Origin: Actinoplanes octamycinicus
Lineage (GTDB): Bacteria > Actinomycetota > Actinomycetes > Mycobacteriales > Micromonosporaceae
Direction of reading: 5' to 3'
Length of the DNA: 64,000 nt
Assembly: GCF_014205225.1 (NCBI RefSeq)
Contig: NZ_JACHNB010000001.1
Coordinates: forward strand, 7,111,501 to 7,175,500
Positions 28,498-47,514 of this stretch are shown here, one piece after another; within the stretch, counting starts at the first letter, position 1, and every line of letters begins with the position of its first letter. The translations under genes were made by a program, and so were the position numbers. The notes beneath the pieces were generated by a model. The model saw only the letters and a list, made by a program, of their open reading frames with translations, searched no databases and was not told the origin of the DNA.

Positions 28498-28534
28498 GGG
28501 GCGCCCGCGGGCAGCCTCCGGTGGGAGGCGCCCT
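28498..28534 (-). promoter_or_regulatory. Structured leader of the deaminase gene
   Basis: On the transcript, GGGCGCC can pair with GGCGCCC (28500-28506 with 28527-28533), while GCCTCC can pair with GGAGGC (28514-28519 with 28524-28529). The two stems share bases and exclude each other. A TAGCGT -10 box lies upstream at 28602-28607. It matches no riboswitch class I know. Confidence 0.3.
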
Positions 28535-28604
28535 TACGACCAAACGCGAGCCGAGCGTGGCGGACATCGTCCGTCGCAGCGCCCCTCGGCCCGCACCCGC
28601 GACG

Positions 28605-41437: not shown

Positions 41438-41884
41438 ATGAACGTCGTCCTGACCGGCAAGCTGACCGTCGCCCGACCGCCCGAGCAGGCGTTCGAGCTG
41501 TTCACCGCGCGCGGCGAGGAGCGCTGGGTGCCGGGCTGGCAGCCCCGTTTCCCGGCGCCCGCGCCCGACGACTCGGCCCCCGGCACCGTCTTCGAGACCA
41601 GCGCCGACGGCCGCACCACGACGTGGGTGGTGGCCGACCGGACGCCCGGCCGCCGGGTGCGCTACGCCCGGGTGCTGCCCGGCGTCACGGCCGGCACCGT
41701 CACGGTGGAGCTGGCCGAGGGCGCCGGCGGGCACAGCGACGTCACGGTCACCTACGAGCTGACTGCGCTGACCGCCGCGGCGGAGCCGGAGCTGCGCGAG
41801 TTCGCCGCCGGCTATGCCGGGATGCTGCGTCACTGGTCCGACGCGATCGCCGCCGCGCTGACCGAAATGGATGGCGGCGAGTAG
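41438..41884 (+). CDS. SRPBCC-family (START-like) protein
   Basis: The 148-residue protein begins with LTVARPPEQAFELFTARGEE and WVPGWQPRF and ends with a long amphipathic helix (RHWSDAIAAALTEMDGGE), the helix-grip layout. The ligand is unknown. It stands between the chitinase and the MFS exporter but has its own promoter. Confidence 0.75.
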   Translation: MNVVLTGKLTVARPPEQAFELFTARGEERWVPGWQPRFPAPAPDDSAPGTVFETSADGRTTTWVVADRTPGRRVRYARVLPGVTAGTVTVELAEGAGGHSDVTVTYELTALTAAAEPELREFAAGYAGMLRHWSDAIAAALTEMDGGE

Positions 41885-41894
41885 GCCCGGGCGA

Positions 41895-41900
41895 TAGGTT
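41895..41900 (+). promoter_or_regulatory. -10 box TAGGTT of the exporter leader
   Basis: The hexamer lies 7 bp before the ATG of a 7-codon reading frame, so the transcript would begin with the mini-gene and then run about 110 bases to the MFS exporter. Confidence 0.45.
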
Positions 41901-41907
41901 GCCTGCC

Positions 41908-41931
41908 ATGTTCGACCCGCGGAAGTCCTAG
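41908..41931 (+). CDS. Seven-codon leader peptide (MFDPRKS)
   Basis: The frame ATG-TTC-GAC-CCG-CGG-AAG-TCC-TAG lies 7 bp downstream of a -10 box and 90 bp before the MFS exporter. Its last three codons form one arm of a stem whose other arm covers the exporter's ribosome-binding site. This is the layout of leader peptides in translational attenuation of erm and cat genes. The function is inferred from layout alone. Confidence 0.4.
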   Translation: MFDPRKS

Positions 41932-42019
41932 CCGTCATCCCTGACGCGCGGGTGGAGTCTGCCCTTTTCCGCCGCGTGTCCTCCGGATCCGTGACGGCGC
42001 ACTCTCCGACAGGACTTCC
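41921..42019 (+). promoter_or_regulatory. Predicted translational attenuator of the MFS exporter
   Basis: GGAAGTCCT (41921-41929, in the leader frame) is complementary to AGGACTTCC (42011-42019), which contains the AGGA ribosome-binding site of the exporter. A second stem nests inside: GCCGTCA (41931-41937) with TGACGGC (41992-41998). When the stem forms, the exporter's start would be hidden; a ribosome stalled on the leader would open it. Confidence 0.45.
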
Positions 42020-42021
42020 CG

Positions 42022-43257
42022 ATGGACCTCCGTACCTCTCCGTCTGCCCGGCCGCTGTGGCGGCACCGTGACTTCCGGCTGCTGCTCGGCGGGCGGCTGA
42101 TCTCCCAGCTGGGCGACCAGCTCCAGTTCCTCGCCCTGCCGCTGCTGGTCGTGACGCTGACCGGCTCGTCCGCCCAGGCCGGCCTGGTGCTCGGCCTGCA
42201 GACCGTGGTCTACCTGGGCTTCGGGCTGGTGGCCGGCGCGCTCGCCGACCGCTGGGACCGCAAGGCCACGATGATCTGGTGCGAACTCGGCCGCGCGCTG
42301 CTGACCGGCAGCATCCCGGTCGCCGCCGCGGCCGGTGTGCTCGGCATGCCGCAGCTGTTCGCCGTCGCGGTCGCCAACGGCGTGCTCAGCACCCTTTTCG
42401 GCGCGGCGAACAGCGCCGCGCTGCCGGCCATCGTCACCCGCGCCCAGCTGCCCACCGCACTCGGCGCGATCGGCGCGGCGTCGAACACGCTGCGGATCGC
42501 CGGCGCCTCGGTGGCCGGCCTGGCCTACACGCTCGGGCGGATGCTCCCGTTCGCGGTCAACGCCGTCTCGTTCCTGGTGTCGGCGGCAGCGCTGCGGGCC
42601 ATCCGGGCCGGCTTCCAGCAGGACCGCGCCCCGGCGGCGGCGTCGCCGCGCGAGCTGATCGCCGACATCCGGCACGGGCTGTCCTGGCTGTGGCACCGGC
42701 CGGTGATCCGGACCCTGGCCCTGCTGGACGCGGGCGACAGTCTCCGGTACGGCGCCGGCTACCTGCTGATCATCATGCTCGCCCGGGAGCTGCACGCGAG
42801 CCCGGCCCAGGTCGGCCTGGTCTTCACCGGCGCGGCGGCCGGGGCGCTGCTCGGCAGTCTGCTGGCGCCGGTGCTGGCCGGGCGGTTCCCGCTCGGGCGG
42901 CTGTCCATCGCGATGCTCTGGGTGGAGGCGCTGGCGTTCCCGTTCTACGCGCTGGCGCCGGCCTGGTGGCTGCTGCTGGTCGTGGCGTTCGCCGAGTCGG
43001 TGGTGGCGCCGGTCTACACCGTCGCCCTGGACTCCTACCGGATCGGGGTGACGCCGGACGCGCTGCGCGGGCGGGTGACCGGCGCGATCGACACGCTCAC
43101 CACCGGCGCGGCCGCCGTCGGGACGATGGCCAGCGGCGCGCTGATCGCCGGCATCGGGGCGCCGGCGCTGACCTTCGTGCTGGTCGGGTGGCTGACGATC
43201 CTGGCGCTGGTCGCGACGCTGAGCCGGACGGTCCGCTCCGCCACCGCGACCGGCTGA
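42022..43257 (+). CDS. MFS exporter (MdfA/tetracycline-efflux-like, enterobactin-exporter type)
   Basis: The 411-residue protein has 12 predicted membrane helices, the N-terminal FRLLLGGRLISQLGDQLQFL and the loop 2-3 motif GALADRWDRKATMI typical of drug-efflux MFS_3 proteins. It would export a small molecule using the proton gradient; the substrate is unknown. AGGA lies 7 bp before ATG 42022 and can be masked by the leader stem. The last codons (TVRSATATG) are the first copy of a 35-bp repeat that continues past the stop codon. Confidence 0.88.
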   Translation: MDLRTSPSARPLWRHRDFRLLLGGRLISQLGDQLQFLALPLLVVTLTGSSAQAGLVLGLQTVVYLGFGLVAGALADRWDRKATMIWCELGRALLTGSIPVAAAAGVLGMPQLFAVAVANGVLSTLFGAANSAALPAIVTRAQLPTALGAIGAASNTLRIAGASVAGLAYTLGRMLPFAVNAVSFLVSAAALRAIRAGFQQDRAPAAASPRELIADIRHGLSWLWHRPVIRTLALLDAGDSLRYGAGYLLIIMLARELHASPAQVGLVFTGAAAGALLGSLLAPVLAGRFPLGRLSIAMLWVEALAFPFYALAPAWWLLLVVAFAESVVAPVYTVALDSYRIGVTPDALRGRVTGAIDTLTTGAAAVGTMASGALIAGIGAPALTFVLVGWLTILALVATLSRTVRSATATG

Positions 43258-43427
43258 CCCGGCGGTCCGCTCCGCCACCGCGACCGGCTGCCCCGGGCGA
43301 TCCGCACCACCACCGCGACCGGCTGCCCCGGGCGATCCGCACCACCACCGCGACCGGCTGACCCGGGCGATCCGCACCACCACCGCGACCGGCTGACCTG
43401 GGCAATCCGCACCACCACCGCGACCGC
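43232..43427 (+). repeat. Tandem repeat, six copies of a 34-35-bp unit
   Basis: Units start with TCCGC at 43232, 43266, 43301, 43336, 43371 and 43406 and share CACCGCGACCGGCTG followed by ACCCGGGCGA or a close variant. The first unit is the end of the exporter gene, and the rest lie outside coding sequence. The 35-bp period is not a multiple of three, so the repeats do not extend the protein. There are no spacers between units, so this is not a CRISPR array. Confidence 0.85.
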
Positions 43428-44100: not shown

Positions 44101-45423
44101 TTAACACCCCCGGTGGGTCCGCGTCGTTGCCCCCGCACCGCCGTTATGCTGCTCGGGACCGCCGCGCCGTTCGTAAGGATCCCGACTTGACATCTCCCCG
44201 CCCTCAAGGACGGGGATTCCAGCGGTCACCCGCCGGGTTTCCTGTTTCACAGCCTGCTGCCCCGGACGGAGATTCCCCCGTTGAGGTCTTACGCCAGCTC
44301 CACAGGCAGACACCGCCAGCCCGGCGGCCAGGATGTTGCGGGCCGCGTTGACGTCGCGGTCGTGGGTGGCGCCACAGGGGCAGCTCCACTGGCGGACGTT
44401 GAGCGGCATCTTTCCCGTGAGGTGCCCGCAGGCCGAGCAGACCTTGGACGACGGGTACCAGCGGTCGATCACGACCAGGTCCCGGCCGTACCAGTCGGCC
44501 TTGTAGGTGAGCAGCTCACGGAAGGTGGTCCAGGCCGCGTCGCAGATGGCGCGGGCCAGGGTGTGGTTCTTGACCATGTTGCGCACGGCCAGGTCCTCGA
44601 TCACGAGCGTTTGGTTCTCACGCACGAGTCGGGTGGTCAGCTTGTGCAGGTGGTCACGGCGCCGGTCGGCGATGCGTGCATGCACGCGGGCGACCTTCAG
44701 CCGGGCCTTGGCCCGGTTCGCGGAGCCTTTCTCCTTGCGGGCCAGATCGCGTTGCGCGCGGGCCAATCGGCGCCGGTCGGCACGCTCCTGGCGGGGGTTG
44801 GCGACCTTCTCCCCGGTGGAGAGGGTGACCAGGTGGTCCAGACCGGCGTCGATGCCGACTGCAGCCCCGGTGGCCGGCGCGGGTTCGATGGCGTCCTCGC
44901 ACAGCAGGGCCACGAACCAGCGGCCCGCCGAGTCCCGCGACACGGTCACGGTGGACGGCGACTGCCCTTCGGGCAGCGGCCGGGACCAGACGACCTCCAG
45001 CGGATCGGACATCTTGGGCAGGGTCAGCTTGCCGTTCTTCCAGCGGAAGGCGGACGCGGTGAACTCGGCCGAAGCCCGCGACTTCCGCTTCGACTTGAAG
45101 CGCGGGTACCTCGCCCGTTTCTCCCAGAAAGCGGAGAACGCCGCTTGCAGATGCCGCAGGCACTGCTGGAGCGGGACAGAGGAAACCTCGTTGAGGAACG
45201 CCAGTTCCTCGGACTTCTTCCAGGCGGTCAGCATCGCGCTGGTGGCGTTGTAGTTGACCCGTTCCTGCCGCTGACACCAGGCGGCGGTGCGGGCCTGCAG
45301 GGCCAGGTTGTAGACCTTGCGCACACACCCGAACGTCCGGTTCAGCAGATCGGCCTGCTCCGGAGTCGGATAGAAGCGGAACTTGAACGCCCGCTTCACG
45401 CTGCGCCTGGACAAGCCGCACAC
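44101..45423 (-). CDS. tnpB: TnpB, RNA-guided endonuclease of an IS605-type element
   Basis: The protein (about 440 aa) has the N-terminal OrfB helix-turn-helix (AFKFRFYPTPEQADLLNRTF), the RuvC-like residues D in GIDAGLDHLVT, E in LVIEDLAVRN and D in CGATHDRDVNAARNI, and between them a zinc finger with CSACGHLTG and WSCPCG. All three catalytic acids are present, so an active nuclease is likely. TnpB proteins cut DNA next to a short motif using an RNA from the right end of the element. The frame runs past the element end (GIPVLEGGEMSS) for about 30 codons of flanking DNA. GTG 45423 is used; VKRAF at 45399 is an alternative start. Confidence 0.88.
   Translation of the reverse strand: MCGLSRRSVKRAFKFRFYPTPEQADLLNRTFGCVRKVYNLALQARTAAWCQRQERVNYNATSAMLTAWKKSEELAFLNEVSSVPLQQCLRHLQAAFSAFWEKRARYPRFKSKRKSRASAEFTASAFRWKNGKLTLPKMSDPLEVVWSRPLPEGQSPSTVTVSRDSAGRWFVALLCEDAIEPAPATGAAVGIDAGLDHLVTLSTGEKVANPRQERADRRRLARAQRDLARKEKGSANRAKARLKVARVHARIADRRRDHLHKLTTRLVRENQTLVIEDLAVRNMVKNHTLARAICDAAWTTFRELLTYKADWYGRDLVVIDRWYPSSKVCSACGHLTGKMPLNVRQWSCPCGATHDRDVNAARNILAAGLAVSACGAGVRPQRGNLRPGQQAVKQETRRVTAGIPVLEGGEMSSRDPYERRGGPEQHNGGAGATTRTHRGC
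44167..44330 (-). ncRNA. Predicted right-end RNA (omega RNA) of TnpB
   Basis: In known IS605-type elements the guide RNA starts inside the 3' part of tnpB, folds around the right-end hairpin and continues into the flank, whose first ~16-20 bases act as guide. Here this places the scaffold up to TCAA at 44187 and the guide at GTCGGGATCCTTACGA (44186 down to 44171). The 5' end is a guess. Confidence 0.35.
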
Positions 45424-45560
45424 GTTAGCACATTTGTTCGTGAGGGATCGTACGAGCAGTCTGTGGGAGGACACCAAACCGCCTCGACGGCGAACGAGCC
45501 ATCCCTGACCTGCACCGCAGGAGTTCCGTTTTCTCTCCGACCTGAAGGCCGGAGTATCCA
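44187..45560 (-). mobile_element. IS200/IS605-type element carrying only tnpB
   Basis: The element holds one gene for TnpB and subterminal hairpins that are similar and in the same orientation: CCCCGCCCTCAAGGACGGGG (44196-44215) at the right end and CTCCGACCTGAAGGCCGGAG (45535-45554) at the left end. On the tnpB strand the right end reads ...GATGTCAA, and TCAA is the end tetranucleotide known from IS608. No tnpA is present, so movement would need a transposase in trans. The left boundary between 45,555 and 45,572 is uncertain, as is the target site. Confidence 0.75.
45535..45554. repeat. Left-end hairpin of the TnpB element
   Basis: CTCCG-A-CCT and AGG-C-CGGAG form an imperfect stem that parallels the right-end hairpin in sequence and orientation. 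It lies 18 bp before the start codon of the SARP-like gene. Confidence 0.6.
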
Positions 45561-45572
45561 CGGAGGAATCTG

Positions 45573-46407: not shown

Positions 46408-47514
46408 TCATCGCAGCGGACCGAAGAAGGCATGCAGGTCGGCGACCAGCAGGTCAGGCGCCTCCAGGGCGGGGAAGTGGCCGCCCCGATCGTGCTCTTT
46501 CCAGTAGCGGATGTCCGGGTAGCGGCGGGCCGCCCAGCGCCGCGACGACCGGGGCAGCTCGGCCGGGAAGATCGACGCGCCGACCGGCACGTGCACCGGC
46601 CCGGCGTCCGCACGGGTGATCCACCGGGAGACCTGCTCGATGCTCTCCGCGTAGAGGCGGGCGGAGGAGGTGGCCGTGCCGGTCAGCCAGTAGAGGGTCA
46701 CCTGGTCGAGGATCTGGTCGGGAGTCGGACGGGTCGGCTCGTCGCTCCAGGCGAGGAGTTTCTCCGCCATCCAGGCACAGAGACCGGCCGGTGAATCGGT
46801 CAGCGCGAAACCCACGGTCTGCGGCGCGGTACGGTGCACCTCGGAGTACGCCGAACCGGTCCGGGACCGCTCCACCAGCCGGGCCAGCGCGTCCCGCTCG
46901 GCCGGGGTCAGGTCGTCGTCCGCGGCCGGACCAGCGAGGGGCGGAACCAGGTGGATGCCGCACACGTGGGCGCTGTCCGTCGTCGCGAGCAGCGTCGAGA
47001 TGCTGGTCCCCCAGTCACTGCCGGCCGCGCCGTACCGGAGATGGCCGAGCTCTTCCATGATCTGGGCCCAAGCCGCCGCGATCCGCTCGATCCCCCACCC
47101 CGGGCCCGCGGGTTTGCCGCTGAAGCCGTAGCCGGGCAGTGACGGGATCACCACGTCGAAGCCGGCCTCGGTGAGCGGCCCGACGAGGCCGACCAGTTCC
47201 AGCACCGAGCCGGGCCAGCCGTGGGTGAGGATCAGCGGCAGCGCCCCGGGCCGCGGCGATCGGGCGTGCAGCACGTGGATCGGCAGGTCATCGACCGTGA
47301 TCAGCAGTTGCGGGTACGCGTTCAGCCGCGCCTCGGCGGCCCGCCAGTCGTACCCGGTGACCCAGTGCTCGCACAGCTCCCGCACCGTCCGCAGCGGAAT
47401 CCCCTGCCCCCACGCCGCCTCCGGCCATCGCGTCCGGGCCAGCCGGTCCCGCAGCTCGACGAGATCCGACTCCGGCACCTCGACCCGGTAGGGCTCAATC
47501 CCGTTGATTCGCAT
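46408..47514 (-). CDS. Epoxide hydrolase (alpha/beta fold, EHN domain)
   Basis: The 368-residue enzyme starts with an epoxide hydrolase N-terminal domain (VPESDLVELRDRLARTRWPE) and continues with the alpha/beta core: oxyanion HGWPGS, nucleophile Asp in AAGSDWGTSIS, and the catalytic His in EHDRGGHFPALEAPD. It opens epoxides to diols by ester-type catalysis. It ends 4 bp from the convergent SARP-like gene. The substrate is unknown. Confidence 0.9.
   Translation of the reverse strand: MRINGIEPYRVEVPESDLVELRDRLARTRWPEAAWGQGIPLRTVRELCEHWVTGYDWRAAEARLNAYPQLLITVDDLPIHVLHARSPRPGALPLILTHGWPGSVLELVGLVGPLTEAGFDVVIPSLPGYGFSGKPAGPGWGIERIAAAWAQIMEELGHLRYGAAGSDWGTSISTLLATTDSAHVCGIHLVPPLAGPAADDDLTPAERDALARLVERSRTGSAYSEVHRTAPQTVGFALTDSPAGLCAWMAEKLLAWSDEPTRPTPDQILDQVTLYWLTGTATSSARLYAESIEQVSRWITRADAGPVHVPVGASIFPAELPRSSRRWAARRYPDIRYWKEHDRGGHFPALEAPDLLVADLHAFFGPLR

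Follow-up and report, generated by a model that had tools for sequence, protein, structure and literature searches.

A conserved, probably drug-responsive leader with a seven-codon mini-gene ahead of a putative MFS exporter in Actinoplanes octamycinicus and other actinobacteria

A gene for a major facilitator superfamily (MFS) transporter in Actinoplanes octamycinicus is preceded by a leader in which a mini-gene of seven codons ends in a sequence complementary to the ribosome-binding site, or Shine-Dalgarno (SD) sequence, of the transporter. The leader was studied within a stretch of 64,000 nucleotides (nt), hereafter the window (contig NZ_JACHNB010000001.1 of assembly GCF_014205225.1, positions 7,111,501 to 7,175,500), taken from a genome of 10.28 Mb in a single contig. 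The anatomy of the leader, its conservation, the type of its promoter and its predicted pairing were directly observed. Its recurrence in distantly related actinobacteria suggests a real drug-sensing switch, and the leader is a genuine, conserved and probably drug-responsive element. With a probability of roughly two in three, it acts as a translational attenuator: a ribosome held on the mini-gene would free the SD of the transporter, whose export function we infer from its family matches. The parts of the leader in the window are as follows.

41864..41869, + strand: box GAAATG of the WblC/WhiB7 type, with one mismatch to the published GAAAWY, 2 base pairs (bp) before the -35 element (3 bp in the paper)
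41872..41877, + strand: -35 element TGGCGG (TKGMNN), with a 17-bp spacer to the -10 element
41895..41900, + strand: -10 element TAGGTT, 7 nt ahead of the mini-gene ATG
41908..41931, + strand: mini-gene MFDPRKS*, ATG to TAG, probably leaderless, kept in orthologue loci
41915..41921, + strand: strand 1, ACCCGCG (codons 3-5), able to pair with 41947-41953
41921..41929, + strand: strand 1b, the anti-SD GGAAGTCCT at the end of the mini-gene, complement of strand 4 AGGACTTCC
41931..41937, + strand: 5' arm of the nested stem, GCCGTCA, pairing with 41992-41998
41943..41951, + strand: strand 2, GACGCGCGG, pairing with 41972-41980
41951..41961, + strand: 11-nt motif GGTGGAGTCTG of the Micromonosporaceae group, at +42 to +46 counted from the start of the mini-gene
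41972..41980, + strand: strand 3, CCGCGTGTC, partner of strand 2
41992..41998, + strand: 3' arm of the nested stem, TGACGGC, partner of GCCGTCA
42011..42019, + strand: strand 4, AGGACTTCC, with the exporter SD (AGGA, 42011-42014) seven bases ahead of the exporter ATG at 42022
42022..43257, + strand: MFS transporter, taken as an exporter, of 411 amino acids, matching PF07690 and PF05977 (MFS_1 and MFS_3 domains), with a TIGR00900 (H+ antiporter) match below cut-off

The initial annotation of this DNA had reported a -10 box TAGGTT 7 nt before MFDPRKS, the complementarity between the end of the mini-gene and the SD region, and a nested 7-bp stem. All of these were recovered at the coordinates above, and both stems, the outer one formed by strands 1b and 4 (1b:4) and the nested one, are present in minimum-energy folds (z -2.2 and -3.1 against shuffled sequences). 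The fold of 41908-42024 reached z -3.1, with one in 200 shuffles equally good. The WblC/WhiB7-type box and -35 element, the 9-bp helix between strands 2 and 3 (2:3) and the 11-nt motif are additional to that description. As for the chance rate of the promoter spacing, 11 of the 1682 ATG or GTG triplets on the + strand of the window carry TANNNT 6-8 nt upstream.

Orthologues of the exporter are sparse. In the family of the window the gene was found in 16 of 354 genomes at E <= 1e-90, its own genome counted, while a class-wide sample of 394 genomes returned the genome of the window alone at E <= 1e-80. A search of the genus Streptomyces gave 3 of 295 genomes, the search centre counted, and the family of Sinosporangium (Streptosporangiaceae in the NCBI taxonomy) gave 5 of 297. 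Relatives of the window were found in Actinoplanes, Winogradskya, Micromonospora and Dactylosporangium, which sets it within or close to Micromonosporaceae. A scan of named genome contigs yielded 11 loci; one of them, L045, has 31% identity, is no orthologue and was excluded. Loci L035-L040 and L058 were left out as duplicates (copies of L047, L048, L032, L034, L054, L057 and L041), which left 27 loci: 16 from the family of the window, among them Glycomyces, which NCBI places in its own family, six from Streptomyces and five from Streptosporangiaceae. Both L046, used for its promoter only, and L076, used for neither promoter nor leader, are among the 27. The alignment of the Micromonosporaceae group misaligns the 3' end of L057 and lacks strand 3 of L031, both rows being kept in the counts; a second leader alignment misplaces the anti-SD of three leaders, and pair counts were not drawn from it. 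Moreover, a covariance model of the leader found no match in five genomes with loci (four Streptomyces, one Sinosporangium), so that the leaders of Streptomyces and Streptosporangiaceae are recognised by position, promoter, mini-gene and pairing, and not by sequence identity with the Micromonosporaceae leader.

The strongest evidence that the observation is real is the conservation of the promoter and mini-gene pattern. A mini-gene of 6-8 codons follows a TANNNT -10 element by 6-8 nt in 25 of the 27 orthologue loci, two of them imperfect; when orthologues and paralogous MFS loci were compared in one scan of the 260 nt upstream, the intact arrangement (TANNNT, 6-8 nt, ATG or GTG, short open reading frame, ORF) was present in 23/27 and 0/29, respectively. 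With GTG starts written as M, the mini-peptides of the window's family are MFDPRKS (window), MSPCKS, MFSPCKS, MFSPRDV, MSSPRKS, MFSLRRE, MSHPRKS, MFTPRDV, MFTPSDV, MFTARDV and MSTPRKS; those of Streptomyces are MSITPRVS, MLVTPRVS, MFTTPRVS, MFSTPRVS and MSVLLCDV, and those of Streptosporangiaceae MRTAPIV, MRTAPIE and MSTPRKS. Differences in length amount to whole codons. The distance from the -10 element to the start codon is 6-8 nt in all 25 leaders, which would put the first transcribed base on the start codon of the mini-gene or 1-2 nt away from it; judging from this spacing, the mini-gene is probably leaderless. One locus, L046, has no mini-gene and no 5' arms, yet retains promoter and SD, and looks like a natural constitutive form whose SD was opened by loss of the leader.

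Two further readings of the leader were considered and set aside. Read-through of the mini-gene stop codon would give RVES in frame in many leaders, but the same sequence is out of frame in the window and in L050; a second ORF beginning at GTGGAG inside the motif has a reading frame that, judged by eye, is not kept among leaders. Membership of the leader in an Rfam family was rejected as well, no match reaching the gathering score (best E 4.9) and those obtained being chance matches.

The promoter provides a second, independent line of support for a link with ribosome-targeting drugs, as it resembles the WblC/WhiB7 type used in the response to them. In Streptomyces coelicolor, the WblC (WhiB7) promoter is given as GAAAWY, 3 bp, TKGMNN, 16-19 bp and TANNNT, with most transcript starts 7-8 bp past the -10 element (PMC7157823). 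The promoter of the window departs from this by one mismatch (GAAATG, TGGCGG, 17 bp, TAGGTT) and by the 2-bp gap between box and -35 element. Allowing gaps of 2-4 bp, 17 of 26 promoters (the 25 leaders and L046) have at most two mismatches in box and -35 element, against a mean of 0.285 and a maximum of 2 across 400 sets of shuffled upstream regions, while the other nine have three or more mismatches. The promoters are related to one another, which leaves fewer independent cases than these counts suggest. Furthermore, the genome of the window encodes a WhiB protein (L074) with GVWGGE, which we take to be a mark of WhiB7, and with the AT hook RGRPRK. The AT hook is described in print as a WhiB7 mark.

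To measure pairing between mini-gene and SD, the first 33 nt (the mini-gene plus 9 nt) were taken as the partner of the SD core, and their pairing probability was compared with that in 40 shuffles of those 33 nt. In the window this probability was 0.91, against a shuffled mean of 0.09, and it exceeded 0.5 in 14 of 25 leaders (the window and 13 others). Group means against shuffled means were 0.93/0.20 in Streptosporangiaceae, 0.72/0.40 in Streptomyces and 0.58/0.17 in the PRKS class of the window's family. The duplex of mini-gene and SD in the window is also stronger than in dinucleotide shuffles (z -3.66, p 0.002); its energy is clearly better than that of shuffles in the window and L060, and mildly so on average. 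In the Streptomyces folds, the TTACGGAGCGTAA region around the SD is the partner of codons 3-7, with 11 pairs in L041, although the minimum-energy fold of L059 differs. L060 has different codons, yet forms 14 pairs with the unchanged SD region. In three of four Streptosporangiaceae leaders, codons 3-5 contain CGCTCCG, which pairs with CGGAGCG or CGGAGTG; in L077, of the same family, it is the CCCCCGTAAGTC region that pairs with the SD region. The anti-SD CGC[CT]CCG is read as ACG CCC CGT (TPR) in Streptomyces and as ACC GCT CCG (TAP) in the three Streptosporangiaceae leaders; if these sequences are homologous, their reading in different frames would mean that the RNA pairing has been kept rather than the peptide.

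In the Micromonosporaceae group, the 9-bp helix 2:3 (GACACGCGG/CCGCGTGTC) is paired in 98.4% of cells and the counterpart of the nested stem in 86.5% of cells of the family alignment. For 1b:4, the nested stem and helix 2:3 taken together, 88.7% of cells are paired against 85.2 +- 0.8 in shuffles, sliding the arms by 1-3 columns drops pairing to 33-50%, and ten cells are changed on both sides against 4.7 in shuffles. The alternative pairing 1:2 accounts for 76.8% of cells, with at least five of six inner pairs in 13 of 15 leaders. An RNAalifold consensus comprised helix 2:3 only. The motif GGTGGAGTCTG is exact in 13 of the 15 leaders, with one substitution each in L051 and L052. All 15 have it at +42 to +46 counted from the start of the mini-gene, but anywhere from 57 to 151 nt from that of the exporter, which ties it to the transcript start. 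A longer pattern, GCGGGTGGAGTCTGYCC, is present in eight of 354 family genomes, each time as a single copy at the exporter leader. As a separate observation, the GGGTGGAGTC portion of the motif (window 41950-41959) is similar to the Streptomyces loop GACGTCACCC (L041-L044) when the latter is read as its reverse complement, a likeness which may reflect a DNA-binding site or chance.

These elements can be combined into the following mechanism. Transcription from the WblC/WhiB7-type promoter would begin at or beside the ATG of the mini-gene, as its inferred start position indicates, and ribosomes would translate the seven codons as a leaderless ORF. When ribosomes move freely, the mini-gene would be cleared fast and its 3' half would pair with the exporter SD, closing a cruciform which also holds helix 2:3 and the nested stem, and the exporter would be off. 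A translation inhibitor would instead hold a ribosome on the mini-gene and thereby cover the anti-SD strand 1b, upon which strand 2 could pair with strand 3, the SD would be free and unblocked ribosomes would make the exporter, which would in turn export a ribosome-targeting compound; stalling and induction by a drug are presumed. The anti-SD of the window occupies nt 14-22 of the transcript. A ribosome covers about 15 nt beyond its P site, and one with its P site on codon 2-3 would already cover the transcript as far as nt 19-22.

Several observations weigh against this attenuator. A lack of conservation of mini-gene or stem in close relatives had been set beforehand as the refuter of leader control through a translated mini-gene and a masked SD; mini-gene and promoter proved to be kept, which supports such control, but the outer stem is preserved in the PRKS class and not among PRDV leaders. 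In the five PRDV leaders the pairing between SD and mini-gene is 0.06 against 0.09 in shuffles, and in 11 of 25 leaders, these five included, it is at or below 0.5, so that the mini-gene is not the main partner of the SD there. PRDV-type leaders are predicted to mask the SD by other means, with masking partners that differ among lineages. The mean z of the duplex is weak (-0.78 in 21 leaders, -1.09 in 25). Of 21 leaders, only 13 have an SD that is less open in the full fold than the average of their shuffles, with a median p of 0.41, which we ascribe to the masking of almost any SD in GC-rich RNA; and modelled blocks of the mini-gene gave a mean openness of 0.14-0.29, depending on the stall position, against 0.16 in the free leader and 0.25-0.26 in shuffles. 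Compensatory changes are likewise mixed: the inner stem of L060 is altered on both sides (GGACAC/GTGTCC to GGATAC/GTATCC) and four PRDV sequences have G-C in place of U-A at columns 26:195, but pairs with changes on both sides number four, hardly above the 3.5 in shuffles, and pairing 1:2 showed no covariation beyond shuffles in the Micromonosporaceae-group leaders. At the level of single loci, L049 (SRPRKS) has ACG at the start position, L057 has lost the stop of the mini-gene, its frame continuing past the exporter start, and the upstream region of L076 contains no leader of this kind. Beside this, L032 and L055 were seen to carry a second anti-SD strand between motif and strand 3 (GGGAGTCCT and GGTTTCGGT, respectively), which masks the SD in place of the mini-gene.

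How a ribosome would be held on the mini-gene can be conceived in more than one way. In erm and cat leaders, a nascent chain and a drug acting on the peptidyl transferase centre arrest the ribosome at one codon, and the same could happen here with [A/S/T]-P and a chloramphenicol- or oxazolidinone-like compound. Chloramphenicol and linezolid stall ribosomes in an Ala, Ser or Thr context, and one of these residues stands directly before Pro in 19 of 25 mini-peptides. Both drugs are listed in print as context-specific. However, the residue before Pro is D, H or R in the window, L051 and L049, L050 and L056 have SLR and TAR, L060 has no Pro at all (MSVLLCDV), and the similar anti-SD read in two frames points to preservation of the RNA and not of the peptide, all of which makes a peptide-specific stall rather unlikely. 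Sensing of mere occupancy, as proposed for toiL in Escherichia coli, appears to fit at least as well, given that the mini-gene is the main SD partner in 14/25 leaders and that the anti-SD is read in different frames. If no drug were involved, the mini-gene might simply keep the SD open during the passage of ribosomes, as a form of constitutive translational coupling. The SD would indeed open with any ribosome on the mini-gene, and leader genes have been argued to raise expression (PMC4833913); nevertheless, the promoter type indicates a response to ribosome drugs, the leaders of 81-195 nt are longer than coupling requires, and L046 achieves an open SD simply by having no leader, so that coupling alone seems improbable.

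Regulation could also take place before translation. The whiB7/wblC upstream ORF (uORF) is described as acting through a terminator, and CCCTTTT follows the motif in six of the 15 Micromonosporaceae-group leaders (window, L032, L034, L050, L051, L052), as transcription attenuation might have it. Yet the predicted pairing is aimed at the SD, and no terminator-like site was found in 41500-42500, the region scanned, which lies in the window only; we regard a leader governing a terminator as quite improbable. Least credible is the possibility that a repressor or other DNA-binding regulator uses the conserved DNA as its operator, with an incidental mini-gene: the strict placement of the motif at +42 to +46 and its reverse-complement look-alike in the Streptomyces loop would suit it, but lineages without the motif preserve the mini-gene in its start, stop, length and distance from the -10 element.

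In a more specific form, which we put forward tentatively, as possible though still doubtful, the leaders would be a widespread but sparse set of actinomycete occupancy sensors, in which the 7-8 codons that open a leaderless transcript serve as anti-SD to an exporter under WhiB7 control, and any held ribosome opens the exporter. A ribosome anywhere on the mini-gene, start codon included, would suffice regardless of drug or peptide, and evolution would keep the anti-SD RNA while frame and peptide change (TPR and TAP). In Micromonosporaceae, GGTGGAGTCTG, located near +45 and in agreement with the pause consensus of RNA polymerase (G-10 Y-1 G+1), would hold the polymerase until a ribosome loads. 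With a WhiB7-type promoter and a leaderless sensor of ribosomes on one transcript, a leader of the proposed kind would join two layers of the response of actinomycetes to ribosome drugs within about 160 bases. Mini-genes of 7-8 codons are below the usual length limits of gene callers, and this type of leader could be commoner than known. Moreover, natural variants with an altered peptide but kept RNA pairing make sensing by occupancy alone testable, and the leader points the way to an exporter for a ribosome-targeting compound, either self-made or released by neighbours.

The exporter scores far below the NCBIfam cut-offs for curated families of drug exporters, with 53.3 for Tap (cut-off 625), 38 for Tet(V) (640) and 19.1 for Mef(A) (675), a sequence search of the PDB gave no related solved structure, and no plasmid relatives were found at E 1e-40. 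Upstream lies a gene with a Polyketide_cyc2 domain, ending at 41884, and the neighbouring genes at five loci (10 proteins) gave no clue to the drug. A 35-bp tandem repeat in six copies (window 43218-43426) starts within the last codons of the exporter and continues beyond its stop, looking as if the 3' end of the gene had been amplified. On the - strand, 0.8 kb downstream of the exporter, a TnpB/IS605 OrfB-type protein is encoded (44101-45561; OrfB_IS605 and a Cas12f1-like TNB domain). An epoxide hydrolase with an EHN domain lies 1-3.2 kb from the exporter both in the window (46408-47514) and in Glycomyces (L040, 7299-8528), but in different orientation, and its proximity may be due to chance. 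Elsewhere in the window, an SAH riboswitch (RF01057) occupies 28519-28593 on the - strand, with 43.5 bits, above the gathering score.

Among the matches listed in a search of the open-licence literature in PubMed Central on actinobacterial leader peptides, uORFs and attenuation, titles and the openings of abstracts do not describe this leader, which is not proof of absence. Several known systems share part of its design. The erm and cat leaders, with ermB and ermC as printed examples, combine a short leader ORF, a masked SD and mutually exclusive helices with a resistance gene downstream. The leader described here likewise has a short ORF ahead of a putative resistance gene and may share the masked SD and the exclusive helices, but its ORF has no SD and no stall peptide is common to all groups. 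Like the whiB7/wblC attenuator, as outlined in the published accounts, it involves an actinobacterial uORF that would sense ribosome inhibitors, and the promoter type of the whiB7 product is the type seen here, whereas whiB7 acts via a terminator. A leaderless short ORF controlling the next gene is also found in the mycobacterial polycysteine attenuators (Canestrari 2020, via PMC9031893), although these depend on cysteine codons and cysteine supply and the present mini-genes contain no Cys run. The Streptomyces tiaA and are5sc uORFs are, by the account in PMC12421871, equally very short, from actinomycetes and inhibited by ribosome drugs; they differ in their ABCF targets, in their ribosome-binding sites and in a predicted terminator/anti-terminator, and the transcription reporter of tiaA is given there as constitutive. 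In E. coli toiL-topAI, as presented in PMC12121999, part of the uORF sequence pairs with the ribosome-binding site of the gene that follows, and it is proposed that a ribosome stalled at any point of the uORF lifts repression. The same relation between uORF codons and the SD of the next gene is predicted in 14 of the 25 leaders studied here and not in the other 11; toiL, however, has its own SD and controls a toxin-antitoxin operon, in contrast to the probably leaderless mini-gene, WblC/WhiB7-like promoter and MFS target of the present system. Among uORF translational attenuators, the leader is thus distinct in being probably leaderless, in using its own codons as anti-SD in most, though not all, lineages, and in lying behind a WhiB7-type promoter.

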